The notes under the pieces are model-generated. The model saw nothing but the letters and a program-made list of their open reading frames with translations. It was not told the origin of the DNA and searched no databases. This document shows, one piece after another, positions 1 to 27,691 of a stretch of DNA of 64,000 nucleotides. The DNA is from Proteinivorax hydrogeniformans. Lineage in GTDB: Bacteria > Bacillota > Proteinivoracia > Proteinivoracales > Proteinivoracaceae. Within the stretch, counting starts at the first letter, position 1. Every line of letters begins with the position of its first letter. The position numbers and the translations under genes were made by a program. The stretch is from assembly GCF_040515995.1 (NCBI RefSeq), contig NZ_CP159485.1, positions 2,480,001 to 2,544,000 of the forward strand, given 5' to 3'.

Positions 1-1950
1 TGCTGTTTCCGTTAAAAATATATCCTGTACAACTAAGAAACTTTCTTTTAGCCCCTTAATTACATGGTTTGTATCAGGATCAGATAACACAGGGTTTTCT
101 CCCATAATGTAAAGCATTTTAATTTTTCCGCTTTCTGCATGTTTCATCATATGAGTCATGGTCATCCCAGTTTCACCAGATAGCTTTGTTCCCCAAGCCT
201 TTTCAAACTTTTCCTGAACTTTTTTATCGCCAATAGGCTGATATCCAGTATAAACGACAGGTAAAGCACCCATATCACAGGCTCCCTGTACGTTGTTTTG
301 ACCCCTTAGCGGGTTAATTCCTGTTCCTTCTCTACCCAAGTTGCCAGTAACCAAAGCTAGATTAGATAGACTGATAACACCGTCTGTTCCTTTATGATGC
401 TGAGTTATTCCCATGCAGTAGAAAATACTTCCTCTATCGTATTTAGCGTACATTCTGGCAGCTTTTCGGATATCTTCTGCATCTACCTCACAAATCTCTG
501 CTACCTTTTCAGGGGTGTATTTTTTCAATACTTCTTTCAACTGCTGGAAACCTTCAGTATTTTTCTCAATATACTCTTTGTCCTCTAGACCTTCCTCTAA
601 AATCACATTTAGCATTCCATTTGATAATGCAATACTGGTACCTGGTTTGATTTGTAAAAATACGTCAGATACATCCTCCAGTGAAATTTTGCGAGGATCA
701 GCTACTATTAATTTGGCACCTTTTTTAACCGCTCTTCTAATACGCGCTCCAATAACAGGGTGATTTTCTTCTGTATTTGTACCTGTTAAAAATATAACTT
801 CTGCCTTGTCTATCTCTGCGATACTATTTGTCATAGCTCCACTTCCAAGTGTAGTTGCAAGACCTGCAACTGTAGAGCTGTGTCAGAGTCGAGCACAGTG
901 ATCAACGTTGTTTGTACCGATACCTGCCCTAAAAAACTTAGTCATCATATAATTATCTTCTGTTATAGCTCTAGCGGAAGAAAATCCACCGATAGCATCA
1001 GGTCCATCTTGTTCTTTAATTTCAGTTATTTTGTCCGCTATTCTTTGATAAGCTTTCTCCCAAGTTGCTTCTTTGAGCTCACCATTTTCTCTTACAAGTG
1101 GTTTGCTTAGTCTATCAGGGTGGTTAATAAAATCAAAAGCAAACTTGCCCTTTACACAAAGCAAACCTTGATTCAACTTACCTTTTACGGGATTGACCTC
1201 AACTATCTTGTCATCTTTAGTGGAAAGTTCTAGCTGACAACCAACTCCACAGTATGAACAGGTGGTTTCAACTTTTTCTGTTTCCCAGTGCCTATATTTA
1301 TGTTTTGCTTTCGGCATCAGTGCTCCTACTGGACAATTTGAGACGCAATTTCCACAGGACACACAATCTGTCTTTGTTAACTCTTTGACAATGTTTTGGG
1401 GAGCTTTAACATACCCTTGCATACCTTGTCTTACTAAAGATAACCCTTCTACACCCTGTAACTGTGTGCAGATTTCCACACATTTTCCGCACGCGATACA
1501 TTTCTCTCTATCAATGTAGTAAAAAGGATTTTTATCGAAAAGTTCCTTTGGAGCAATATTTTCTCTAAAATAGTCAGGTCCTTTAACATCGTATTTATAG
1601 CAATACGTTTGCAAATCACAATGCCCTGACTTTTCACAGGTTAAACAATCTAAAGGATGATCAGCCAAAACTTCTTTAAGAATCTCTTGTCTAGCTCTAA
1701 CCACATTGTTAGATTCCGTCCAAATCTCCAAATTATCCTTTACCATTACATCAGTAGAATCGACTAGACTCTCTTCTCCTTTTATTTCGACAATGCTTAA
1801 GTCAGCTCCGCTATCTACAGTTTTCATCTCAAAGCGTTCGTCATAATTTAAAGTTGGTATATTTATATTGTTCAAGCGAGCTGCATTAAAAACACTTATT
1901 CCTTCTTCACATTGGACAGGTCGTCCGTTAATTTTAATTGTTATCATCAT
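1..1950 (-). CDS. fdhA: Selenocysteine-containing formate dehydrogenase alpha subunit (3' end beyond window)
   Basis: Molybdenum/tungsten bis-MGD enzyme that interconverts formate and CO2. Reading through an in-frame TGA at 885-883 joins an N-terminal frame ending NVDHCARL to a downstream frame starting HSSTVAGLATTLGS, the usual context of the FdhF active-site Sec (about residue 356). Domains in order: degenerate ferredoxin-like region (about 1-75), His-Cys3 cluster region (HPLDCLTC), two 4Fe-4S motifs (CIACGKCVEIC, CVSCGNCVSNC), the 4Fe-4S of the catalytic domain (CSYCGVGC), then the molybdopterin domain, which runs off the left edge. The N-terminal [2Fe-2S] cysteines are absent. The start is taken as ATG 1950 (or ATG 1947) behind AGGGGTG; it overlaps the end of the hydrogenase gene, so the two are probably translationally coupled. 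Identity as a Sec-FDH is firm; its electron partner is inferred from the operon. Confidence 0.95.
853..871 (-). promoter_or_regulatory. Bacterial SECIS hairpin of fdhA
   Basis: Starting 11 nt after the UGA codon, the minus strand forms a 7-bp stem (AGUUGCA/UGCAACU) with a GGUCU loop. This closely resembles the apical part of the E. coli fdhF SECIS, whose loop is also of the GGUCU type and is bound by the SelB C-terminal domain. It supports recoding rather than termination at 885-883. Confidence 0.85.
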
Positions 1951-3703
1951 GTTCACCCCTTACATCAACATTTTTCGTAGAGCGATCAATATAGTGGGTA
2001 TGAAGTAAATCGTGAGCTTTATGTCCACCTGGCTGCCCCAAATAATTATCATACAATTTGCTAATTAGAGGATTCTCATGAGACCGGCGCAAGGTAGAGT
2101 TTCCATCTGTTTTATAAATGCCTGCCATTCTCTTTTTAACTGTTTCCATAGAATCTGGAATAGGGGCTCCTCCTCCATTAATACAACCTCCTATACATCC
2201 CATTATTTCTACAAAGTGATATTGTTTTTCACCATTTTCAATTTTTTTCATTAGCTCCTTAGCAGCAGCTGTACCATGGACAACAGCAATTTTGACCTTC
2301 ATATCTGCTATTTTAATCTCTGCTTCTTTAGCATTTGTCAGTCCTCTTACACCTTCATACTCTATTTTGTCTAGTTTGCCTTCACTAAGTTTCCAAGCAA
2401 CTGTTCTTAAAGCTGCTTCCATAACTCCACCTGTTGTACCAAAAATTCTTCCAGCACTAGTGTGATCTCCTAAAAAGTTGTCAAAACTTTCTACGTCAAG
2501 CTTTGCAAATTGAATTTTTTCCATCTTTATCATTTTTGCTAACTCTCTCGTTGTCAGTACCGCATCTACATCTTTTAAGTCGTTGACTTTTAATTCTTCT
2601 CTATCTGCTTCGAATTTTTTAGCAGTACAAGGCATTATAGATAGGCTAAATATTTTTTGAGGTTCTAAATCATTAATTTCTGCATAATAGGACTTAGACA
2701 AAGCACCGAACATTTGTTGTGGTGATTTACAAGAAGATACATTTTCCAATAAGCGGGGATGATTATGTTCTACATACTTTACCCAACCTGGAGAGCAGGA
2801 GGTTAACAACGGAAGCTTTTCACCTTTTTGGATTCTGTCAATAAACTCAGTTCCCTCTTCCATTATTGTCAAGTCTGCGGTAAAATCGGTACTAAATACT
2901 TTGTCTGCACCTAGTTTCCTTAATGCTGCATTGGTTTGTCCTGTAACATCAGTGCCAGGCTCCAACCCAAATTCTTCACCCAAAGTGTGTTTAACAGCTG
3001 GTGCTGTTTGTACCACTACGTGTACATTAGGATCATTTATAGCTGCACGTACTCTATGGATATCATTTTTCTCTACTAACGCCCCTACAGGACATACTTT
3101 TATACATTGACCACAGTTTATACAATCAGTTTCTGAAATAGGTTCCTTTTCTTTAGTGTTAATAACTGTGTCATGTCCTCTTTCGGTATAATCATAAATG
3201 CCTATGTCCTGTGTTTCCGAACAAACTCTAACACAATTTCCACATACTATGCATTTATTTATATCTCTAGTAATGGAAGTACTTGATAAATCAAGAACTT
3301 CTTTTTGTGGCAAAGTCTCCAGCAATTGCTCTTTTCTATTAACATCATATTGGTAACAAAGGTTTTGCAATTCACAATCTCCAGCTACTTTATCGCAAGT
3401 CAAGCAATCATTTGGGTGATTGGCAATTAAAAGTTCTAACGTCGCTTTTCTTGAATCTTTAATTCTCTCTGTTTCTGTGCGCACTACCATTTTGTCTTTT
3501 ACTTTTGTATTACAAGAAGCCAAAAGCTCCTCTTCTCCATCAACCTCCACAACACACATTCTACAATTTCCCTCATCATTCAAATCGGGATGAGTACATA
3601 AAGTAGGGATGTTAACTCCATTTTTCTTACATACATCCAAAATTGAATTATCTTCCGTAGCAACTACATTTTTACCATTTATAGTCAATCTAACTGTTGC
3701 CAT
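1934..3703 (-). CDS. hydA: [FeFe] hydrogenase catalytic subunit, HndD/HydA type
   Basis: Produces or oxidises H2 at an H-cluster. About 589 residues in the order: [2Fe-2S] ferredoxin domain with all four cysteines (CTHPDLNDEGNCRMC ... SC), His-Cys3 cluster (HPNDCLTC), two 4Fe-4S motifs (CIVCGNCVRVC, CINCGQCIKVC), H-domain and small C-terminal subunit-like domain. H-cluster motifs are TSCSPGW (about 303), MPCTAKKFE (about 359) and EIMGCIGGCINGGG (about 501). The TSCSPGW form with a nearby SSCKSPQQM is, as I recall, usual for subunits of multimeric hydrogenases. Start chosen at ATG 3703, 7 nt after GGGAGG; an ATG at 3709 is too close to that site. It lies between the NuoF-like gene and fdhA, with an overlap into fdhA. 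Confidence 0.95.
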   Translation of the reverse strand: MATVRLTINGKNVVATEDNSILDVCKKNGVNIPTLCTHPDLNDEGNCRMCVVEVDGEEELLASCNTKVKDKMVVRTETERIKDSRKATLELLIANHPNDCLTCDKVAGDCELQNLCYQYDVNRKEQLLETLPQKEVLDLSSTSITRDINKCIVCGNCVRVCSETQDIGIYDYTERGHDTVINTKEKEPISETDCINCGQCIKVCPVGALVEKNDIHRVRAAINDPNVHVVVQTAPAVKHTLGEEFGLEPGTDVTGQTNAALRKLGADKVFSTDFTADLTIMEEGTEFIDRIQKGEKLPLLTSCSPGWVKYVEHNHPRLLENVSSCKSPQQMFGALSKSYYAEINDLEPQKIFSLSIMPCTAKKFEADREELKVNDLKDVDAVLTTRELAKMIKMEKIQFAKLDVESFDNFLGDHTSAGRIFGTTGGVMEAALRTVAWKLSEGKLDKIEYEGVRGLTNAKEAEIKIADMKVKIAVVHGTAAAKELMKKIENGEKQYHFVEIMGCIGGCINGGGAPIPDSMETVKKRMAGIYKTDGNSTLRRSHENPLISKLYDNYLGQPGGHKAHDLLHTHYIDRSTKNVDVRGEHDDNN

Positions 3704-3723
3704 TTTCATACCTCCCTTAGCTC

Positions 3724-4881
3724 TTATTCCTTATGTTGAAGACTCGCCATAATTGGATTTATAGCTTTATTTCCAAACCCACATAAAGAAGAATCTTTTA
3801 TTGCTTTTGCAAAAAACTCAACTAGTTTAACCTTATCCCGTTCTCCTTCAAAGAAAGCTGGCACAAGATCTCCCATTCTCTTTAATCCCTCTCTACATGT
3901 GGAACATTTGCCACATGATTGCTGTGAATTATGTTGCACTGAGTTAACAATAAGTTCTGTTAACCTTTTTTTATCTTCTATAACTTCTACAGGACTCGCC
4001 CCAAGTAAAAAACCTTCCTTCTTTGAGGTTGCATAATCAATCTTTGTTGTTTTTAGTTGTTCCTCGGTTAAAACCCCACCTAAACTTCCCCCAACATTTA
4101 TAGCATACAGATTGGGAATGTTTATTCTTTCACTTGCTTTTTTAATTAATTCTTCGAAGTTAGAGCCTAGCTCCATAGTAACTAGACAACCTTCCTGACC
4201 ATTCTGCACATAAAATACTTTGCATCCATAATTATCTGCTTCCCCCATAGTCTTAAACCATGAGCTTCCATTTTCCACTATTAAAGATATATTAATTAAA
4301 GTTTCTACGTTAGCAATAAATAGCTTGCTTTGCTGCCATGTATTTTTGGCTTCTAAAAATGGGTAACGTCCGTGACTTAAATTTTCTTTATAATTAGTTA
4401 AAAGTGCGATGTCATTATCAAAAAAAATATTTTTTTCATCTACATCAATAATGTCAATCTTTAACTCTTTAGCCTTAAAATAACCCATTTTACCCATTTG
4501 TTTAATAGTTAGTTTTAACATTCTACTAATCAACTGGTGGCTTTCGTTTATAAAAATGCTAACTTTTGATGCTTTTACCGCCTTTGCAGATAAAACTAAT
4601 CCTTGAACTAAGTGGTAGGTATTCGATGAAGCTAAGCCATTATCTAACTTTGAATTACCGATATGCAAAACTACTTCTTTAGAGCCAGTATATTTTGCTA
4701 CCTCTTCCATATAATTACCGATAAATATTTTTCTACCATCCCTGCTGAGCAGCTCAGCTTCTTTTATCTCTTTAATAACTTCTTCGCCTTTACTTTCTAC
4801 GACAGCCATTGAGTCAAAAGCGAGTTTCTCCACATCATATTTTTCTAAACCTTGTTCGTTTAGAGATAAAACTCTTTCCAT
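3724..4881 (-). CDS. NuoF/HydB-like subunit lacking the FMN/NADH-binding motifs
   Basis: Homologue of the 51-kDa diaphorase subunit found in bifurcating hydrogenases and complex I. The C-terminal half is recognisable: NVETLINISLI, the soluble-ligand-binding beta-grasp region (about 225-300), and a 4Fe-4S motif CGKCSTCREG ... LCGFGNKAI. In the N-terminal half, where the family has the glycine-rich GRGGAGFPTG FMN loop and NADEGDPGAF, this protein has SRDGRKIFIG and HIGNSKLDNG. Both flavin/nucleotide signatures are therefore gone. At 385 residues it also lacks the N-terminal thioredoxin-like extension and C-terminal ferredoxin of larger HydB proteins. No NuoE (24-kDa) gene is nearby. A structural or electron-wiring role in an FDH-hydrogenase complex is likely; direct NAD(P)H oxidation is unlikely. 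Confidence 0.85.
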   Translation of the reverse strand: MERVLSLNEQGLEKYDVEKLAFDSMAVVESKGEEVIKEIKEAELLSRDGRKIFIGNYMEEVAKYTGSKEVVLHIGNSKLDNGLASSNTYHLVQGLVLSAKAVKASKVSIFINESHQLISRMLKLTIKQMGKMGYFKAKELKIDIIDVDEKNIFFDNDIALLTNYKENLSHGRYPFLEAKNTWQQSKLFIANVETLINISLIVENGSSWFKTMGEADNYGCKVFYVQNGQEGCLVTMELGSNFEELIKKASERINIPNLYAINVGGSLGGVLTEEQLKTTKIDYATSKKEGFLLGASPVEVIEDKKRLTELIVNSVQHNSQQSCGKCSTCREGLKRMGDLVPAFFEGERDKVKLVEFFAKAIKDSSLCGFGNKAINPIMASLQHKE

Positions 4882-4982: not shown

Positions 4983-4998
4983 AGCAATTGTCATGCCA
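4983..4998 (-). promoter_or_regulatory. Sigma-54 (-24/-12) promoter of the hydrogenase-FDH operon
   Basis: The minus strand reads TGGCATG-N4-TTGCT, matching the sigma-54 consensus TGGCAC-N5-TTGCW at the invariant GG and GC with correct spacing. It lies about 100 nt upstream of the first gene of the operon (ATG at 4881). A sigma-54 activator gene is present at 7307-9553. Confidence 0.82.
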
Positions 4999-5188: not shown

Positions 5189-5237
5189 AACTAAAAAATG
5201 GTACCTGCTATTACTAGCAGATACCATTTTTTAGTTT
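5189..5237 (-). terminator. Rho-independent terminator of the chemoreceptor-type sensor gene
   Basis: Long hairpin with arms AAAAAATGGTA.CTGCTA and TAGCAG.TACCATTTTTT, followed on the minus strand by further T-rich sequence. It overlaps the stop codon at 5231. Confidence 0.8.
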
Positions 5238-7123
5238 AAATTGTTTTTTCCAGTTAGTTCAGAAGAAGTATTAGATAAATCTTCTAACGACGAATTTGTT
5301 TCCTCAGATATAGCCATAACGTTTTCCATTTTTTCTCCTACGATGCTAATAACTTTATTAAGTTTATCTACTGAATCTTCTATGGTTTTTACACTCTTTA
5401 CTCCACTACTATTATTTTTTTCTGTTTGGGATACCACAACCTCAGATTGTTCTGCAAGCTTTCTAACTTCCTCAGCAACGACGGCAAACCCCTTACCTGC
5501 ATCTCCTGCTCTGGCAGCCTCTATAGATGCATTTAAAGCAAGCAAGTTAATTTGTTCTGCAATTTCTACAATTTTGTTTGACATTTCTTCATGCTCCGAA
5601 AAAGTTTTCGTCAATAAATCAACGCTGTTAATAGTATCTTGAGATGCAGTTTCTATATCTCCCATCTGACTGTTTATTTCATACATATCTTTAGCCGTCT
5701 CTTCTGAAACTTTGGTCAAATCATTAATAATGCTGTTTATATTTTCTGCCCCTTGCTTTATGTTTTTCAATAACATCTCTTGTTTTTGGGAGTTTTTTCT
5801 AGTTAACTCTGCATTTTGTCGTTCTTCATTTAACAACTTTTCCTGTTTGATTTCCCCTTCTCTTCTATTATATTCTATACAGTTTTCTAAAACGTTGTAA
5901 TTTAAGGCGATAACTTTAACCATATCTTCACAACTTTTATAACCACAAGCAGCACAATCAAAACTTTTATCTTCATCGGTTTTTTTGTGAAGTTTACTGT
6001 AAATTATATCCTTTTGATTTTGTTCAACCTTTTTCTCTTTCCATCTATTATTATAAGTTACCTTAAAGTCATCTACCCGTAGCTTTTTCTCGAAATTTTT
6101 CACCATATCTCTTGGAGAAACTTTCGAAAAAAGCCCTTTCTTTTGTGCAGTTATTTTTTTAGTCTTCTCATACAAAATAGCATCCATTTCATCAGAACTC
6201 ATCATGTTTTCGGTAGCAGTTCCCAGCAAACATCCTTCTGAGCAATTAAGTATATCTATAACAAAAGGAAGCTTCCCCTGTCTTTTGTTGATACCAGATA
6301 AATAGTTTTGAACTAATTTAGGTCCTTCAATTTTTTTAATATGAAATCCCTTTCCATAAACCTGCTCAATACTTTCTTTTAATCCCCCAGGAGTGGGATA
6401 CCAAAACCCTACTAAACTTTCAGGAGAGTCAAAGTTTTCTTCTTTTTCCCATTCCCCTTCTTTTCTGTACAACTCCATAATTTTTTTAAATGTAATGTTA
6501 TAATCAATATGCTTATGTCTTCTGAATTCGTCGGTTTTTGCTATACAAGGCGACAGTGCAGCTATTTTCCCCTCAAACCCTTCATATTTTTTCAAATATA
6601 TAGCTGCACAAGACATAGGTGAGCCAACCGGGCTTAAATATTTTAATAAATTTGGATAATATCGTTCGATACTGTTCACAATCACAGGACATGGTTGAGA
6701 AATGATAGTTTGTAAACTTTTTTCTTCAAAAATTTTCATATAAAGAAATGTAGTGATATCTGCCCCAAAGCTAACATCATAAATCAATTGGATTCCTTTA
6801 CTCTTTAACCAAGCAAACACCTTTTTGTACTCATCGGGATAATTTAACATAAAAGCAGGGGCAACTACTATAGATATTTTTTTGTTTTGCTGAAGATCTG
6901 TTAAAAGCTGCTCTATATCGTCTTCATAATATCTGGCTTGATGGGTACAAGCTTTTATACACTCCCCACATGTTATGCACTCCTCATTTGCTATATCAAC
7001 TTTTATTGCCCCAGATTCATCTTTAAAGGCTTTATTGGCCAATATTTGAGGGCATTCCCTAATACATTTATCGCATCCTGTACATTGTTCTTTATTAGTT
7101 TTTATTATTTTTTCTCCTAACAT
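5231..7123 (-). CDS. Hydrogenase-like sensor fused to a methyl-accepting chemotaxis signalling domain
   Basis: 630-residue soluble protein with no membrane segment. Order: two 4Fe-4S ferredoxin motifs ([22 protein letters not shown]; about 14-60), an [FeFe]-hydrogenase large-subunit C-terminal-type domain (about 80-310), a further 4Fe-4S motif CAACGYKSC (about 390-398), a coiled coil, then an MCP signalling domain whose tip [16 protein letters not shown] lies near 526-540. The four H-cluster ligand cysteines are present: QPCP (145), SPC (193), C294 and C298 in NCSEGC; the AK of the second motif is kept. The proton-relay Cys is Pro and the GGGQP ending is lost, as expected of a sensor rather than a turnover enzyme. 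It has its own sigma-54 promoter and sits beside the hydrogenase operon. Probable job: report H2 or redox state to CheA/CheW; output is inferred. ATG with GGAGG upstream. Confidence 0.88.
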
Positions 7124-7172: not shown

Positions 7173-7188
7173 AGCAAATACTATGCCA
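7173..7188 (-). promoter_or_regulatory. Sigma-54 (-24/-12) promoter of the chemoreceptor-type sensor gene
   Basis: The minus strand reads TGGCATA-N4-TTGCT, with GG and GC in the correct positions, 50 bp upstream of the ATG at 7123. It is very close to the promoter at 4983-4998, suggesting joint control by one activator. Confidence 0.78.
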
Positions 7189-7306: not shown

Positions 7307-9553
7307 CTAAGATATTTCTGTTGTTAAGTTATATTTTTTTAGTTTTTCATAGAAATTTGATCGGGATATATTTAAAAGCTTAGCAGCTTTAGTCCTGTTA
7401 TTATTAGATCGTTTTAGTGCATTAACCAATACCTCTTTTTCCACTCGCTCCAAAATTTCATCTAAAGGTTTATTAGGATTAGTTATATTAGTGCCTTGAC
7501 TTTGATTTTCCCAAATAGATTCAGGTAAATGTTCTGGTAAGATGGTATCTTCCTCTACAAGATTTAACAATCTCTCTAATAGGTTTTCTAATTCCCTTAC
7601 ATTACCAGGCCAGCTATAGTTGCACAACATTTCTTTTGCCTTTGCGCTAATGGATTTGCAAGGCAATTTATGTTCTTTAGAAATCTTATCTTTGAGTGAA
7701 TCAATTAGTAAACCTATATCATCTTTATGCCTCTGCCTTAAAGGTGGAATGGTAAAGGTAAGCACGTTCAGTCTGTAAAACAAGTCTTCTCTAAAGCCAC
7801 CTTTATTTATTTCTTGTTTTAAATCTTTATTAGTAGCAGCTATAATTTTAACATCTAGTTTTATAGATTTATCCCCACCAATCCTCATAACTTTTTTATC
7901 TTGTATTACCTGCAAAATTTTAGCTTGCATGACAGGACTCATATCGCCTATTTCATCTAAAAAAATAGCGCCTTTATTTGCCTGTTCAAATTTCCCTATT
8001 TTACCACCTTTTTTAGCTCCTGTAAACGCTCCTTCTTCATACCCAAATAGTTCCGACTCTAAAAGCTCATGGGGTATAGCGCTACAGTTAATTTTAACAA
8101 AGGGTTTGTCTTTTCGTTCTCCTAACCTATGAATAGTTTCAGCAAAAAGACCTTTACCTGTCCCACTTTCACCTAAAAGTAACACTGTAGAGTCGCTTTT
8201 GCTGGCTTTAAAAACAAAGTTCTTAGCTGCCAATATTGACTGGGAACAGCCAACTATGTTTTGGTCTATTTCGTTATACAGTTGCAAGAGATTCTGAGCT
8301 TTTTTCTGATAGTGAGTCGCTCTATTCTCAGTTAACTTCAGCAAATAAGGAAGGCACATCTCCACCTCAGCAACACCGTGATATACAGCCACTGCTTTAT
8401 CTCTACAAGTTTCATAACCACAGGCTCCGCAGTTTAGTTCGTCCTGTTTCTCAAATTTCTCACTATATTCTAAAATTCTTACTATTTCTTTTTCTGAAGG
8501 GAAACTTTTTTTCTTTTTTAAAACACGAAATTCTCTCGACAAGTCAATCTCAACGTAATAATCTGGAGATTTGGGGGCCTTTTGCTTTTTTTCTTTTGCA
8601 AAATTAACCACTTTATTTTTTTTATATTGATTAGTACTTTTATCACCATAAAAATCCGGTCCATTTATACAACCTTTACAATATAAGATATCAATAAGTG
8701 CCGGTTTGAGCTCATTATTTTCAATTCCGTTTAAAGTTTCTAGAACTTCCTCTTTCCCTTCAACCACAGACACATCATTATTTAGTAAGTCGCCATCAAT
8801 ATTAGCTGCTTTTAGCAGCCCACCAGATATAGGAAACAGCTGACCTAAATACTCTTCACTCAGATAGTCGAGGGGTGCTTTCTGACAATCTTCTATATTA
8901 ATTTTTTTCTTTTTTAATAAGCCTTCTAATTCAGAAAACAACAACGCATAATCTACTTTTCCATCTACAGACTCATGGGTAATTTCTGACTTTTTGGCAA
9001 CACATGGGCCTATAAAAACAACTTCTACCTGTTTATCCCAACTTTGTTTTACAAGATCACCCATAGCTATCATTGGTGAAACAATATGAGCTAGATTATC
9101 AATTAAATTAGGATAATGTTTTTTAACTATATTAATTACAACTGGACAGGGTGATGTTAATATAGGTTTATCCAACGGCTTTTGATAAATTTTTTTGTAC
9201 TCTTGTGCTACAATCTCAGCTCCTTGCGCTACTTCATAAACTTGACTAAACCCCATTTTTTTTAATGCTCCCACTAGTTTATAAGGATCCTCTTTAAAAA
9301 AAGCCACAAAAGATGGAGCCATCAAAGCTACTGTTTTTGTATTTATACTGTTAAGAGATTTTTCTACATCACTGTCAAAATCCTTTAAAACTTTGTTGCT
9401 CTGGCTACAGGCTTTTATACAAAACCCGCAGCTTACACATTCTTCTTCTATTAAACTTGCTTGCTCCCCTTTAAAACCAATAGCATTTACTGGGCAATGA
9501 CGCACACAGCAATAGCACCTTTTACATTGTTTGCCTTGAGATGCTATTATCAC
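7307..9553 (-). CDS. Hydrogenase-like sensor fused to a sigma-54 activator (AAA+ and Fis HTH)
   Basis: Predicted enhancer-binding regulator of about 748 residues. The N-terminus has two 4Fe-4S motifs (CKRCYCCVRHC, CVSCGFCIKAC), then a hydrogenase-like domain with SPCP (about 139), GPCVAKK (about 187) and YCKGC (about 295), then 4Fe-4S motif CGACGYETC (about 377). The remainder is a complete NtrC-type module: Walker A GESGTGKG (about 465), sigma-54-contacting GAFTGA (about 511), Walker B FLDEIGD, and a C-terminal Fis-type HTH (TKAAKLLNISRSNFY). The last H-cluster motif has CxxC where enzymes have CxxxC, and the relay cysteine is absent, consistent with sensing. The start is GTG 9553, 10 nt after AGGGGG; a TTG at 9562 is too close. 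Two sigma-54 promoters lie next to it, so they are the natural targets. Confidence 0.9.
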   Translation of the reverse strand: MIIASQGKQCKRCYCCVRHCPVNAIGFKGEQASLIEEECVSCGFCIKACSQSNKVLKDFDSDVEKSLNSINTKTVALMAPSFVAFFKEDPYKLVGALKKMGFSQVYEVAQGAEIVAQEYKKIYQKPLDKPILTSPCPVVINIVKKHYPNLIDNLAHIVSPMIAMGDLVKQSWDKQVEVVFIGPCVAKKSEITHESVDGKVDYALLFSELEGLLKKKKINIEDCQKAPLDYLSEEYLGQLFPISGGLLKAANIDGDLLNNDVSVVEGKEEVLETLNGIENNELKPALIDILYCKGCINGPDFYGDKSTNQYKKNKVVNFAKEKKQKAPKSPDYYVEIDLSREFRVLKKKKSFPSEKEIVRILEYSEKFEKQDELNCGACGYETCRDKAVAVYHGVAEVEMCLPYLLKLTENRATHYQKKAQNLLQLYNEIDQNIVGCSQSILAAKNFVFKASKSDSTVLLLGESGTGKGLFAETIHRLGERKDKPFVKINCSAIPHELLESELFGYEEGAFTGAKKGGKIGKFEQANKGAIFLDEIGDMSPVMQAKILQVIQDKKVMRIGGDKSIKLDVKIIAATNKDLKQEINKGGFREDLFYRLNVLTFTIPPLRQRHKDDIGLLIDSLKDKISKEHKLPCKSISAKAKEMLCNYSWPGNVRELENLLERLLNLVEEDTILPEHLPESIWENQSQGTNITNPNKPLDEILERVEKEVLVNALKRSNNNRTKAAKLLNISRSNFYEKLKKYNLTTEIS

Positions 9554-9589
9554 ATATACCAATCCCCCTAGACTTTATTTTGAAACCTA

Positions 9590-9786: not shown

Positions 9787-10986
9787 TTACACTAATTTTA
9801 GGTTAAAGAATTCAACACAGCGAGGAAAAGCACCAGTAAAGTACGCTAATATAATTCCATAGTTTGTGATGGCAACACTTTTTTCCTGACAAAATCTTAT
9901 CCTATTCATCATTGTCTTTTTATTTACCATGCAAGACCCACAATGGATAACAAGGTCATAGCCTTCGATATCTTCTGGAAAGTCATTGCCCATTTTAAAG
10001 TCAAATTTTATGTTTTCATCAATATGTTTTTTTATCATGCGGGGAATCTTAACTCTTCCTATATCTTCATGAGAATGATTATGGGTACAACTTTCTGAAA
10101 TAAGAACTTTTGATTGTCCGTTTAGTTCTTTTAGTTTCTCTATCCCATAAACGAAAGTTTCAAGATCACCTTTATATCGAGCAAATAGAATTGAAAAACT
10201 AGTCAAACTCATTTCTTTAGGTACAATTTTGTTAACTTCTCCAAAAGCTTGAGAATCTGTAATCACTAAATCAATATCTTTGATCTCACTTAAAGCTTCA
10301 TTTAGCTCTGTGTCCCTTACAACATGGCATTTTATACCGTGATCAAGGCAGTCTCTAATCACCTGTACTTGTGGCAAAATCAGCCTCCCTTTTGGAGCTT
10401 CTGAATCTATAGGTACTACCATTAACACATTTCCCCCGTAGGGAACTAAATCTCCAACAATTGGCGGATCTGTCTCTTTTTTTTGCAATCTATTTATAAT
10501 TTCATCTTTTAATTGTAGGATATTTTGATTTTCTAGCGCCGAAACAGCTATGGGATTATCTAGCTTTTGCATAAAATCATTTAAATCTTTCTTTAAAACA
10601 GTATCCATTTTGTTAACCACAGTCAGGTACGGAATGTTATACTTCTTAAAATTATCTAGCGCATTATAATAATCATCTAGGTTAGGGTCATTAACATCTA
10701 AAACGTAAATAGCAAAGTCCGTTCGTTGTAGTATCTTAAGTGTCTTATTTACCCTTAGACTTCCTAACTCACTATCATCATCTAATCCAGCTGTATCAAT
10801 AAACACCACAGGCCCAAATGGAATAAGCTCCATACTTTTAATTACGGGGTCTGTAGTAGTTCCTTTGACATCAGACACTATCGAAATCTCTTGGCCTATC
10901 ATGGAATTTAGCAAGGTAGATTTGCCTGAATTAGTCTTTCCATAAATGGCGATATGCTTTTTACTCCCTCTTGGTGTGTTTTGCAT
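9787..10986 (-). CDS. hydF: [FeFe] hydrogenase maturation GTPase HydF
   Basis: Scaffold protein that receives the 2Fe subcluster built by HydE and HydG and delivers it to apo-hydrogenase. The N-terminal Era/TrmE-like GTPase domain shows GKTNSGKST (P-loop), DTAGLDD (G3) and NKMD (G4). The C-terminal domain has the cluster-binding HxH...HCxxC signature (HNHSHED, then HCGSC). At 399 residues it is normal length. It is the last gene of the maturation operon, 9 nt after hydG, with AGGAGG before its ATG. Confidence 0.96.
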   Translation of the reverse strand: MQNTPRGSKKHIAIYGKTNSGKSTLLNSMIGQEISIVSDVKGTTTDPVIKSMELIPFGPVVFIDTAGLDDDSELGSLRVNKTLKILQRTDFAIYVLDVNDPNLDDYYNALDNFKKYNIPYLTVVNKMDTVLKKDLNDFMQKLDNPIAVSALENQNILQLKDEIINRLQKKETDPPIVGDLVPYGGNVLMVVPIDSEAPKGRLILPQVQVIRDCLDHGIKCHVVRDTELNEALSEIKDIDLVITDSQAFGEVNKIVPKEMSLTSFSILFARYKGDLETFVYGIEKLKELNGQSKVLISESCTHNHSHEDIGRVKIPRMIKKHIDENIKFDFKMGNDFPEDIEGYDLVIHCGSCMVNKKTMMNRIRFCQEKSVAITNYGIILAYFTGAFPRCVEFFNLKLV

Positions 10987-10995
10987 AGTATCCTC

Positions 10996-12372
10996 CTATA
11001 AGAAAATGTCTTTTTTACCATTCTTTAGCTTTTCTAAGCAATTTATTGTTTGCTTTTTAAGTTCGTTATTTTTCATTCCTTTGACTTTAAAATCAATAAG
11101 CTTTTCACTTTTTTTTAAAAGCTCTCTATCTCCATAGTTTAGAACAAATTCCATAAAAGTAATTAAAGCGTTAGGTGTACATACATTTTGTATCTGTCCA
11201 GTTTTGGTCATCTTTGCAAATTTCTCGCCGGTTCTTCCTTGTCTGTAGCATGCAGTGCAATAGCTAGGGATATGCCCAGAATCAACAAGTTCTTTTAAGA
11301 TCTCAACGACAGTTCTATTATCATCAACATCGAATTGCTTATTTTCGCCGCCAGAGCCTGAAGCTTTATAGGCATTAACACCAGTGCATGAGCCCGCACT
11401 AATCTGAGATACGCCGTACTCTATAACTTCTTTCCTCATCTTAGGTGTTTCTCTAGTGGATAGTATTAGTCCGGTATATGGTAGGGCTAGCCTTAAAATA
11501 GCGACCACTTTTTTAAAGGTTTTATCATCTAAGATATGAGGAAACTCGTTAATCTCCATGCCTTCAGCCTTCTTTAGCCTAGGAACTGATACGGTATGAA
11601 AACCTACTCCATAATGTTTTTCTAAGTGTAAATTGTGCATCATAAGGGCTAAAACTTCGTATTTGTAATCAGCTAAGCCAAATAGCACTCCACCTCCTAC
11701 ATCATCTAATCCCGCCTCCATAGCTCTATCAAATGCTGTTAGATGATAATTGTAGTCACCTTTTTTCGAATTTGCATGAACCCTTTCAAAAGTTGGCTTG
11801 TGATACGTTTCTTGAAATAAAATATAAGTACCGATATCTGCACCTTTGAGCTTTTTATAGTCCTCCACAGAGGTAGCAGCGATATTTACATTTATCCTTC
11901 TTATCTCCCCTCGCTTTGAATAAGTTGAATAAATTGTATCAATTGCTTTTAACACATATTCGATATTACAATTTATGGGGTCTTCGCCAGCTTCTAAAGC
12001 CAATCTTTTATGCCCCATTTCTTCTAAAAGGGTTACCTCCTCTTGGATTTGTTTTTGGCTAAGTCTTTGCCGCTGAAATTTATTATCTCTTTTGTATCCA
12101 CAGTAAGAACAATTGTTGACACAAAAATCACTAACATATAGCGGTGCAAACAGAACAATTCTATCTCCATAAATCTCCTTTTTTATTTTACCCGCTGCTT
12201 TATAAATTTTCTGCATTTGTTCACTATCTGAAACATGTAGTAATGTGGCGACGTCCTTATACGATAGCTCTACCTTATTTAATGCTTTTTGTAAAATTCT
12301 ATCCACTTCTGCTGCGGTATATGTTTTAGTTTCCTTAAGTACACCTTGTATAAAATCATCTTTTATAAAAAT
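10996..12372 (-). CDS. hydG: [FeFe] hydrogenase maturase HydG (tyrosine lyase), probable AUU start
   Basis: Radical SAM enzyme that splits tyrosine to supply the CO and CN- ligands of the H-cluster. The SAM motif is CVNNCSYC; the C-terminal second-cluster motif CTAC-x22-C is present (CTACYRQG ... VC). No ATG, GTG or TTG precedes residue 23 in this frame; the first is GTG 12306, which has no ribosome binding site. Residues just upstream (FIKDDFIQGVLKETK) align with the conserved N-terminus of HydG proteins. An ATT at 12372 lies 8 nt after GGAGG within the end of hydE and would give 458 residues, the usual length. The start is therefore placed at that ATT. Function is certain; the start is inferred. 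Confidence 0.9.
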   Translation of the reverse strand: MFIKDDFIQGVLKETKTYTAAEVDRILQKALNKVELSYKDVATLLHVSDSEQMQKIYKAAGKIKKEIYGDRIVLFAPLYVSDFCVNNCSYCGYKRDNKFQRQRLSQKQIQEEVTLLEEMGHKRLALEAGEDPINCNIEYVLKAIDTIYSTYSKRGEIRRINVNIAATSVEDYKKLKGADIGTYILFQETYHKPTFERVHANSKKGDYNYHLTAFDRAMEAGLDDVGGGVLFGLADYKYEVLALMMHNLHLEKHYGVGFHTVSVPRLKKAEGMEINEFPHILDDKTFKKVVAILRLALPYTGLILSTRETPKMRKEVIEYGVSQISAGSCTGVNAYKASGSGGENKQFDVDDNRTVVEILKELVDSGHIPSYCTACYRQGRTGEKFAKMTKTGQIQNVCTPNALITFMEFVLNYGDRELLKKSEKLIDFKVKGMKNNELKKQTINCLEKLKNGKKDIFL

Positions 12373-13418
12373 TATAATCTCCTCCAGTTTTTATGATCTC
12401 CTCGCGACATATCTAAAGAGTAGCCTATATCACTTACTTTGCCCTCTATATGTTTTCGACATTGGGCGGCTTCATCTGAAACACAAATCTTGCCATTGTA
12501 AAGTGCATATTTTGCCCTCACATTTGTTGGTGATAAATTAGGCATAACCACATTTGCACCAAATCTTATTCCTTGTTCACGCCCTATAGGATCAACACTC
12601 CCTAATGCAGTAGTGGCTGGCAGAAGCACCTTTGGCAGCATAAGGCGGACAATAGCTAGCAAAGTAACAACCTGACGAACGCTGCCGTTAACTTCTCCTT
12701 CTAAAGGTGTGTTATCGTGGGCTATAAATGGCCCTATTCCAATCATTTCAGGTTGAAGTTTTTTTAAAAACATAAGATCTTCGACATAGTCCTTAGTGGT
12801 TTGCTTAGGTAAACCTACCAAAAATCCAGCACCAACCTGGTAACCAATTTTTTTAAGATTCCATAGGCATTGCTTTCTACTTTCAAGGCTCATATTGGGA
12901 TGATACTTTTTATATAAAACTAGCGCCGCTGTCTCATGCCTTAAAAGATACCTATCAGCTCCCGCTTCATAATACTGTTTTAAAGAATTAAAGCTCTTCT
13001 CCCCTAAAGATAGCGTCAGTGCGCAGTCAGGGAGGGCCTTTTTTATAGCTCGTATTACCTCAATTATTTTTTCGTCGGTGTAGTAAGGATCTTCTCCCCC
13101 CTGTAGCACAAAAGTCCTATACCCAAGCTTGTAACCAGCATCACAACAATCCAAAATTTCTTCTGCTGATAACCTGTACCTGTCTGCCTTTTTATTATCA
13201 TGCCGTATGCCACAGTAAACACAGTTTTGTTTGCAATAATTGGTAAACTCAATTATCCCTCTTGTATAAACTGACCTTCCATACTCTCTAATTCTTACTT
13301 CATCTGCTTTTTCTCTCAAATATTCAAGGCTTTTATCATCGATATTATCTAGTAGATATTCAAATTCTTCTCTGTTTAAGGATTGATTATCACAAAGTTT
13401 ATCTATTACTGTTTTCAT
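12372..13418 (-). CDS. hydE: [FeFe] hydrogenase maturase HydE
   Basis: Radical SAM enzyme that processes the HydG product during assembly of the 2Fe subcluster with its dithiomethylamine bridge. 348 residues, TIM-barrel type, with SAM-cluster motif CKQNCVYC near residue 62 and GGEDP further on. The start ATG overlaps the stop of the preceding 85-residue gene by 4 nt, and its own stop overlaps the proposed AUU start of hydG, so the operon is tightly coupled. Confidence 0.96.
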   Translation of the reverse strand: MKTVIDKLCDNQSLNREEFEYLLDNIDDKSLEYLREKADEVRIREYGRSVYTRGIIEFTNYCKQNCVYCGIRHDNKKADRYRLSAEEILDCCDAGYKLGYRTFVLQGGEDPYYTDEKIIEVIRAIKKALPDCALTLSLGEKSFNSLKQYYEAGADRYLLRHETAALVLYKKYHPNMSLESRKQCLWNLKKIGYQVGAGFLVGLPKQTTKDYVEDLMFLKKLQPEMIGIGPFIAHDNTPLEGEVNGSVRQVVTLLAIVRLMLPKVLLPATTALGSVDPIGREQGIRFGANVVMPNLSPTNVRAKYALYNGKICVSDEAAQCRKHIEGKVSDIGYSLDMSRGDHKNWRRL

Positions 13419-13672
13419 ACCTTGACCTCTTTCTTTGATATGGCTGTTTTAACAGTTACACTTTCAAGGCTACCTAGTTTACCTGTAAAACTGTTAATTT
13501 CATTTAATGTTCCTACAACAGTTATCGATACTACAGAAATTCCATGCTCGTTAAATGGAATACCCATCCTGCCTCTAACAATTCTACTATAATCTGAAAC
13601 AACTCTATTAAACAGTTCTTGACATTTTTGTGGTTCTTCCAAAATAGAACTTATAACTGCTATCTTTTTCAT
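13415..13672 (-). CDS. TM1266-like putative iron-only hydrogenase system regulator
   Basis: Small 85-residue ACT-like protein of the family named after Thermotoga TM1266, typically found beside [FeFe] hydrogenase maturation genes. It carries the family's RGRMGIPF and GISVVSITVVGT-type segments. Proposed to be regulatory, but the mechanism is not known to me. First gene of the maturation operon; GAGGTGG ribosome binding site. Confidence 0.85.
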   Translation of the reverse strand: MKKIAVISSILEEPQKCQELFNRVVSDYSRIVRGRMGIPFNEHGISVVSITVVGTLNEINSFTGKLGSLESVTVKTAISKKEVKV

Positions 13673-26692: not shown

Positions 26693-27124
26693 TTAGTTTA
26701 AAGAAACATCCTTTTTACTTATAAAGTCCTTTGTCGCCGTTTTATATATCGCCTTTGCACCATATAAAGAAAGTACTGAGATACACGCCATAGTGCCCAG
26801 CTTACCACCCACGCCTTTAAAAGCATTTATAGAAACCACAAAAACAATGCTCAGAAAAACTAGTGCTACCGTCATTTCCATAAAGTTATTTACACGATTT
26901 TTTCCAGACATTCCTGCGTAAGATGCTGCAGTAACAGCTGATGCTAATGTCAGGCCTAAATCTGCCTCAAAAAGGTTTGGAAAAGTAATACCACTGATAA
27001 GCGCTAGTACTGCAGAGGCGAAAACCGGACCTTTTTTTAAATTATGGTTAATATAAAAAGTTAAAAGTCCACCTAGTATTGTTACAATGAAAACTTGTAG
27101 CATCGTTAAAGGTTCCAACTTCAC
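26693..27124 (-). CDS. Unidentified membrane protein B, linked to fdhD
   Basis: 143 residues, mostly hydrophobic, about four to five TM segments. Contains AASYAGMSGKN and GGKLGTMACISVLSL, which match AAFAGMSC and GGKLGTIAALSVLI of the upstream gene in the same order, so the two are related. No family recognised. A transport or membrane-partner role is possible but unsupported. Confidence 0.65.
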   Translation of the reverse strand: MKLEPLTMLQVFIVTILGGLLTFYINHNLKKGPVFASAVLALISGITFPNLFEADLGLTLASAVTAASYAGMSGKNRVNNFMEMTVALVFLSIVFVVSINAFKGVGGKLGTMACISVLSLYGAKAIYKTATKDFISKKDVSLN

Positions 27125-27130
27125 CCCTCC

Positions 27131-27691
27131 TTAAAGCATACTAAATATCATGGTGGTTATTAGGACAGATAGCGCTGCAATTGTTCCTAGTTTACCCCCA
27201 TAACCATTATAAATAGGCTGAACCTTGATAAATATAACTCCAACTAAAATTCCAGCTAAAAGCACCATGCTATAATTGCTTAACACAGTTGCGCATGACA
27301 TTCCTGCAAAGGCAGCCGTATATGCAACTACCGCTAAATCTTTTGGCAAAAATTGAGCCGCTAAGATTCCAACTATTCCAGAACCAACCATAGGATTTAA
27401 ACCTAAAGCCGGTGCCTCTAAAATGTCTGGGTCAGCCCCCAAAAAGAAAGCTAAAAAAGTTCCGCAAACTGCTAAAAGTATCATTTGAATACGTTTATCC
27501 ATGTTTCCACTCCTGCTCATCATTTCTATTTCTTGCACATGATGATAAACACCTATAGCATAAAGTATTCCTACAACAGCTAAAAGAGTTAGAAATATAC
27601 CATTATCCTCCCAAGTGACAACGGACCGATACATTAAAAGCACACCTGTTCCTATTAACAATAAAAAGGCTGGTAACCTTTTAGTCACCAT
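27131..27691 (-). CDS. Unidentified membrane protein A, linked to fdhD
   Basis: 186 residues with about six TM segments. Conserved small-residue motifs YTAAFAGMSC and GYGGKLGTIAALSVL are shared with the next gene, 6 nt downstream. The start overlaps fdhD by 11 nt, so it belongs to the fdhD transcript. I do not recognise the family. Confidence 0.65.
   Translation of the reverse strand: MVTKRLPAFLLLIGTGVLLMYRSVVTWEDNGIFLTLLAVVGILYAIGVYHHVQEIEMMSRSGNMDKRIQMILLAVCGTFLAFFLGADPDILEAPALGLNPMVGSGIVGILAAQFLPKDLAVVAYTAAFAGMSCATVLSNYSMVLLAGILVGVIFIKVQPIYNGYGGKLGTIAALSVLITTMIFSML

Follow-up and report, generated by a model that had tools for sequence, protein, structure and literature searches.

The NuoF-like gene that precedes an [FeFe]-hydrogenase gene and a selenocysteine formate dehydrogenase gene in Proteinivorax hydrogeniformans (genome G000) has lost the flavin and NADH sites of a diaphorase and has kept its [4Fe-4S] site. 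Its product, here called NuoF*, is probably a degenerate diaphorase retained as a structural or docking Fe-S subunit, in what was once a NuoF-HydA-FdhA enzyme and has turned into a direct formate:H2 enzyme. The sequences themselves show the motif losses, the retained Fe-S and H-cluster ligands, the selection, a gene order shared by two species, a clade of diaphorase-free FdhA-HydA pairs and the PFL/ACS content of the genomes; from these we infer that the proteins form a complex, how and in which direction electrons flow, how the operon is regulated and that NuoF* serves for docking. Coordinates refer to the window, the whole 64,000-nucleotide stretch of DNA that was analysed, unless a locus is named.

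1..1956, minus strand: 5' part of the gene for FdhA, a NuoG-type selenocysteine formate dehydrogenase of 900 aa that continues beyond the window (L005:9254-11956; TIGR01591, 849 bits)
883..885, minus strand: TGA codon within the FdhA frame, taken to encode selenocysteine (DHCARL-U-HSSTVAG); most FdhA relatives likewise have one in-frame TGA
1934..3709, minus strand: HydA, a group A [FeFe]-hydrogenase of 591 aa (NF040763, 821 bits)
3724..4881, minus strand: NuoF*, a NuoF/HydB-like subunit (385 aa ORF; profile searches, alignment and AF2 model)
4983..4998, minus strand: predicted -24/-12 site of sigma-54 type, TGGCATGACAATTGCT, in front of NuoF* (motif search; conserved in the sister species, G001)
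5231..7123, minus strand: sensory [FeFe]-hydrogenase-like protein with an MCP signalling domain (profile searches)
7173..7188, minus strand: predicted site of sigma-54 type, TGGCATAGTATTTGCT, in front of the MCP-type sensor (motif search)
7307..9562, minus strand: sigma-54 activator (AAA+, Fis HTH) carrying a fused H2-sensor domain that resembles [FeFe]-hydrogenase (profile searches)
9787..10986, minus strand: HydF, H-cluster maturation GTPase (TIGR03918, 542 bits)
10996..12306, minus strand: HydG, H-cluster maturase (TIGR03955, 576 bits)
12372..13418, minus strand: HydE, H-cluster maturase (TIGR03956, 527 bits)
13415..13672, minus strand: small protein (ORF only), which we take to be TM1266-like, of a kind that often adjoins hydEFG

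NuoF* is encoded by a full ORF, verified in coordinates, strand and frame, that starts with ATG and has AAGGAGG immediately 5'. It scores 133.7 bits against TIGR01959 (cut-off 558.65); among Pfam domains, NADH_4Fe-4S (PF10589) exceeds its cut-off at 57.2 bits, and Complex1_51K, the FMN domain, reaches 21.9 bits, under its cut-off of 31.2. The original prediction that the FMN/NADH motifs are replaced and the C-terminal 4Fe-4S motif is intact was confirmed by alignment with 28 normal homologues. The FMN glycine loop GRGGxGFPTG reads SRDGRKIFIG, NADEGDPGAF reads IGNSK----- with a five-residue gap, and the NADH-binding loop GEET reads DNDI, none of them what a working diaphorase would carry; INNVET is changed to IANVET. 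Retained are SCGKCxxCREG and SLCGxG, with all four cysteines of the C-terminal [4Fe-4S] site (the invariant C323, C326, C329 and C367). When a column is called invariant if 27 or more of the 28 normal homologues are identical, NuoF* keeps 21 of the 86 invariant columns of the FMN domain and 16 of the 30 that belong to the 4Fe-4S domain (Fisher p=0.006); as judged from this alignment, decay is uneven, being heavier in the FMN domain. NuoF* also has neither the N-terminal thioredoxin-like domain nor the C-terminal ferredoxin domain of HydB. The NuoE/HydC partner expected beside a diaphorase is missing as well, as had been predicted: none was found beside NuoF* among the operon genes read and profiled. 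NuoE-like genes do occur at two other loci of this genome, each with a normal HydB.

Structure and sequence searches identify HydB, NfnB and NuoF chains as the closest solved relatives, at about 22-25% identity. The AlphaFold (AF2) model preserves the NuoF fold (pLDDT 74); its first-ranked Foldseek match is NfnB 9bov_B (E 5.8e-24), and comparison with 9bp5_B gives VIA Z 37.2 and rmsd 3.3 with 375 aligned. Residues 155-184 are disordered in the model (pLDDT <50), at the position of the GEET/PFPA pocket in relatives. One of the Foldseek matches, 7t2r, is by its entry title an FMN-free NuoF-type structure, so such proteins can fold.

Loss of this kind is rare. Among 35 NuoF-like proteins, which are the best-scoring loci out of lists holding many further matches, both motifs are present in 32 and absent together in two, NuoF* and its G001 counterpart (98.7% identical); the NuoF-like protein of L013 departs from the normal sequence by one G to C change. 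Of 149 relatives 2 have NuoF*, as do 2 of 398 phylum genomes (overlapping samples), all in a single genus; among 84,980 named genomes, a set that may omit the host's near relatives, no close homologue turned up. At 80 named FdhA loci, too, there was no sign that dead full-length NuoF is more widespread: of the 32 ORFs spanning the FMN region, 31 carry both motifs, the other (L204) reads GRGGAAYPLG and is normal, and 6 further ORFs are cut at contig ends. Other seeming motif losses at named FdhA loci came from ORFs cut by a contig end, from motifs that the regex had missed, or from C-terminal remnants joined to a GltD-like flavoprotein. Between G000 and G001, dN/dS is 0.082 for NuoF*, 0.126 for HydA and 0.086 for FdhA, values that come from a single pair of species with little divergence (24 nt in NuoF*); by this measure NuoF* is under purifying selection.

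HydA begins 14 bp downstream of NuoF*, and the start of FdhA overlaps the end of HydA by 23 bp. As expected of the hydrogenase of an HDCR, HydA has complete N-terminal Fe-S clusters, [2Fe-2S] ligands included, and the H-cluster motifs TSCSPGW, MPCTAKK and EIMGCIGGC. An H-cluster defect, considered because TSCSPGW looks odd, was ruled out, since the solved A. woodii HydA1 has TSCSPGW too. FdhA corresponds to the Sec/Cys formate dehydrogenase catalytic subunit expected of an HDCR, and it is the sole full-length formate dehydrogenase in the genome.

The NuoG-like domain of FdhA has lost all four cysteines of its N-terminal [2Fe-2S] cluster, with N, A, S and T in those columns. This is the cluster that normally meets the NuoF cluster. 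In an alignment of 32 FdhA rows the four columns read CCCC in 26, NAST in our own sequence (entered twice) and that of G001, and TWCS, with three of four lost, in G251, another FdhA-HydA genome; two rows are cut. At the 80 named loci all 48 scorable FdhA sequences read CCCC, the other 32 loci not having been picked up by the script. The FdhA proteins of L175, L191 and L192 have a loop insertion with extra Cys in the [2Fe-2S] region, and those of L191 and L192 still have four Cys there.

In a HydA tree of 32 rows, HydA falls in one clade of FdhA-paired hydrogenases with those of G001, G251, L191 and both L192 copies (6 of 32 rows, support 100/99), and the members outside this genus, from three genomes, adjoin FdhA without any NuoF. 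In G251 the FdhA-HydA genes are followed by NfnA/NfnB-like genes; L191 and L192 are rumen/gut MAGs, the latter with an adjoining HycB-type set. A diaphorase-free FdhA-HydA pair in the strict sense, with no NuoF gene, is thus found in these three and not here, where the dead NuoF is present. The tree left out L084, L086 and L087 (own duplicates) and L110, L111, L116, L124, L126, L127 and L131 (near-duplicates); a fuller HydA tree, built before the L192 rows joined, gave the same grouping. At the HydA loci fetched from the phylum, this genus and G251 excluded, HydB adjoins HydA in nearly all.

The FdhA tree with clade support, built from 24 chosen rows (a separate FdhA set has 56), unites our own sequence, G001, G251, L175, L191, L192 and L168 (support 100/99). 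Not every member of this clade is diaphorase-free: L168, an Alkaliphilus MAG that falls inside it, has full NuoE/NuoF, normal Cys and a further NuoG-like subunit. The AU test leaves room for a single origin of the FdhA cluster loss without establishing it (p-AU 0.085); an AU test grouping five FdhA rows gave p 0.0027, an uninformative value, as L175, which sits inside, was omitted from the group. Thermohalobacter berrensis (L169) has the gene order NuoF-HydA-FdhA, with a NuoF that is cut at its 5' end and normal from PGAF onward and a HydA outside the clade of FdhA-paired hydrogenases; this locus may serve as a model of the ancestral gene order.

Because its HydA clade partners adjoin FdhA without NuoF, direct transfer from FdhA to HydA without flavin is the best reading of the operon. 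Formate would be oxidised at the Sec-FDH site of FdhA, and electrons would pass through the FdhA [4Fe-4S] clusters and then the HydA [4Fe-4S] clusters to the H-cluster, where H2 would leave, with no flavin, NAD or bifurcation on the route. The original prediction of a different electron route, perhaps in a formate:H2 complex of CO2-reductase type, is supported in the form of a direct HDCR- or FHL-like route, as HydA groups with FdhA-paired hydrogenases that lack a working diaphorase. Its suggestion that NuoF* is a scaffold or Fe-S wire between hydrogenase and formate dehydrogenase survives in its first half: since FdhA has lost its NuoF-facing cluster and relatives manage without NuoF, NuoF* would dock on HydA as a scaffold (or serve as a side port) rather than form an obligate wire. 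Weighing against this explanation, NuoF* is kept in two genomes only, so that a function of its own would rest on selection and gene order; the four Cys in the FdhA of L191 and L192 and the diaphorase of L168 also fit it poorly.

Gene content gives an indication of direction. PFL is present and CdhC/ACS absent in both G000 and G001, G251 has ACS, and FTHFS is found in all three. The presence of PFL and absence of acetyl-CoA synthase favour the direction from formate to H2, which is the likely one in G000 and G001; in G251 the enzyme possibly runs from CO2 to formate. In the fermenting host the enzyme would act mainly in the formate hydrogenlyase direction, disposing of PFL-derived formate.

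The operon may be switched on by the H2-sensing sigma-54 activator encoded upstream. The sequence TGGCAT-N5-TTGCT precedes both NuoF* and the MCP-type sensor, and these two are among five sites in the window with at most one mismatch; both lie on the coding strand in the correct intergenic gaps (binomial p 1.5e-4). Both recur in G001, that of NuoF* without any change and that of the sensor as TGGCAC-N5-TTGCT. A search of the window allowing up to two mismatches found no overall excess of the motif (29 hits, against a mean of 27 by chance).

Downstream, the operon runs NuoF*-HydA-FdhA-U331-ECF-like membrane protein-MrpA-E-F-G-DUF4040-MbhE-B-C-D-Cache protein, the genes after FdhA lying beyond the window. 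From NuoF* to MbhE-B-C-D all genes are on one strand with gaps of -23 to 104 bp, and the order is identical in G001. The cluster thereby combines formate dehydrogenase, hydrogenase and Mrp antiporter genes, as does that of the T. onnurineus type; no NuoB/C/D/H-like membrane connector subunit, also expected of that type, was found among the operon genes profiled, and no HycB-type linker gene, expected of an HDCR, is in the operon. Past the Cache protein lie three further MrpA/MrpD-like subunits (L104:11736-18310, minus strand; 729, 717 and 536 aa), assigned by eye, which with MrpA and MrpD bring the NuoL/M/N-like subunits to five.

U331 (L005:8190-9185, minus strand; in the window 26693-27124 and 27131-27691, both minus strand) is a membrane family with no Pfam match. 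It consists of two repeats with a GGKLGTIAF-like motif, in one fused gene here and two separate genes elsewhere, and recurs beside fdhD, sel genes or FDH/HydABC genes. Its AF2 model is confident (pLDDT 90), but a search for a known transporter fold in the PDB returned no significant match (best E 1.5e-3, TM about 0.2). On the same contig (C1), about 26 kb downstream of the operon and outside the window, is a HydA-RnfC fusion of 1007 aa (L104:992-4015, minus strand) with the domains Fe_hyd_lg_C, Fe_hyd_SSU, RnfC_N, Complex1_51K and Fer4. An RnfD-like gene, recognised by eye, follows it, and the genes upstream encode an Fe-S subunit, a Mo oxidoreductase of Tat type, a chaperone resembling TorD and another sigma-54 H2-sensor. 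This locus suggests an H2-linked Rnf.

The Mrp genes raise the question of whether NuoF* might instead act as adaptor in an [FeFe] formate hydrogenlyase that is bound to the membrane and converts energy, in which an FdhA-HydA-NuoF* arm sits on an Mrp-type module and formate conversion to H2 drives Na+/H+ movement. The single same-strand run from NuoF* to the Mrp/Mbh genes, conserved in order in G001, speaks for this, as does the case of T. onnurineus, which cannot grow on formate without fdh2, a locus clustered with genes for a membrane hydrogenase and a cation/proton antiporter (PMC8965080). We nevertheless consider it rather unlikely, given the missing connector, the FdhA-HydA pairs of G251, L191 and L192 that have no Mrp genes nearby, the occurrence of Mrp sets as stand-alone antiporters, and the FdhA loci L195 and L196, where Mrp genes lie a few genes away and NuoF is normal. 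(L195 and L196 belong to MAGs of Actinomycetota and Bipolaricaulota, and a few genes separate NuoF-FdhA from the Mrp genes in them.) A doubtful elaboration, in which coupling to Mrp is read from gene order, is an ion-pumping [FeFe] formate hydrogenlyase whose flavin-free NuoG/NuoF-type arm would be held on the Mrp-type Na+/H+ module by NuoF*, U331 and the ECF-like protein, and which would live on the small free energy of formate conversion to H2 at high pH and salt, conditions taken from a presumed haloalkaliphilic host.

It is improbable that NuoF* is a side port whose [4Fe-4S] cluster, together with the HydA [2Fe-2S] cluster, exchanges electrons with ferredoxin or another soluble carrier. 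Retention of the 4Fe-4S cysteines despite decay of the FMN domain, and of the HydA [2Fe-2S] ligands, would suit such a port, but NuoF* lacks the C-terminal ferredoxin-like domain of HydB, and in other group A enzymes HydA alone can accept ferredoxin. That NuoF* is a decaying gene without function is very unlikely: its confinement to one genus and the relatives that manage without NuoF are what decay would predict, but the full ORF, the good ribosome site, the low dN/dS (0.08) and the selectively retained Fe-S ligands are not. Hardly credible, finally, is the rebuilding of a bifurcating enzyme in trans from NuoF* and a NuoE/HydB set from another locus. Such a set exists at L006, where the NuoE-TrxFd-HydB genes of G000 lack the FdhA found there in G001 and G009; G001, however, retains FdhA at its L006-type locus and has NuoF* too, and the FdhA of the NuoF* operon is without the cluster that would face a diaphorase. 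The L006 genes (L006:5893-9202, plus strand) are NuoE, a kinase-like gene, TrxFd and HydB, beside Rex, aspartase-like and Rnf genes, with no adjoining HydA/FdhA in G000.

Our preferred explanation, a dead NuoF docked on a direct formate:H2 enzyme, would make this operon an apparent caught-in-the-act step from an NAD-linked bifurcating FDH-hydrogenase to a direct formate-H2 enzyme. The series would run from intact NuoF (T. berrensis) through dead NuoF with a lost FdhA cluster (this genus) to NuoF gone (G251 and gut MAGs), and makes it possible to test clearly if the flavin of HydB separates bifurcation from plain formate-H2 exchange. If the Mrp link is physical, the complex would count as an ion-coupled formate hydrogenlyase of the [FeFe] type, of which full-text literature searches found none in print. 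Literature searches, in which subscription journals were thinly covered, likewise found no description of a flavin-less NuoF in an FDH-hydrogenase complex.

The membrane-bound hydrogenase of T. onnurineus is of the [NiFe] type. The fdh2-hydrogenase-antiporter cluster described for its formate hydrogenlyase (PMC8965080) resembles ours in bringing formate dehydrogenase, hydrogenase and Mrp-type antiporter genes together, but it encodes a multimeric membrane-bound hydrogenase, whereas we find an [FeFe]-hydrogenase and no membrane hydrogenase subunits; Mrp antiporters are covered in PMC5703873. The electron-bifurcating FDH-hydrogenase of C. autoethanogenum, as presented in PMC6288185, and T. berrensis L169 have NuoF, HydA and FdhA in one cluster, as here, but their NuoF-type subunits carry the FMN/NADH site that NuoF* has lost (in the truncated L169 protein, the part from PGAF onward); StnB, too, is described as retaining its FMN/NADH and 4Fe-4S sites (PMC7483475). 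In the Lachnospiraceae-type FdhB, as in NuoF*, the FMN domain of NuoF is lost and the 4Fe-4S domain stays beside FdhA, but there a fused GltD-like flavoprotein replaces the diaphorase, and NuoF* has no replacement. Such FdhB proteins were seen as 27 ORFs at FdhA loci (L193, L198, L202 and 24 more), with Pfam run on one, L193.

The HDCR of A. woodii and T. kivui (FdhF-HycB-HydA2) and the Fdh/Hyd complex of C. beijerinckii likewise combine a formate dehydrogenase with an [FeFe]-hydrogenase; those enzymes are soluble and interconvert formate and H2 without NAD, as ours would. The C. beijerinckii FdhF-HydA-HycB1/B2 complex is reported to have both FHL and HDCR activity (PMC12905484). As described there, these systems use a small FdhF with HycB linkers, whereas here NuoG-type Fe-S domains are fused and HycB is absent. 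Also close are two HDCR-like clusters without Hyc, for which direct transfer between a bifurcating-type HydA and an Fe-S-rich formate dehydrogenase was suggested (Schuchmann et al., 2018; PMC6288185); ours shares with them the type of HydA, the extra Fe-S clusters of the formate dehydrogenase and the absence of HycB. In the passages of that paper that treat them, the two are unnamed and not purified, and NuoF is unmentioned; unlike them, the present operon keeps a dead NuoF, has lost the FdhA [2Fe-2S] cluster and has Mrp genes downstream. The Hyc-free FdhA-HydA type of HDCR-like enzyme was thus already predicted in 2018 (PMC6288185), and the novelty here lies in the dead NuoF, in the loss of the FdhA cluster and in the link to Mrp genes.
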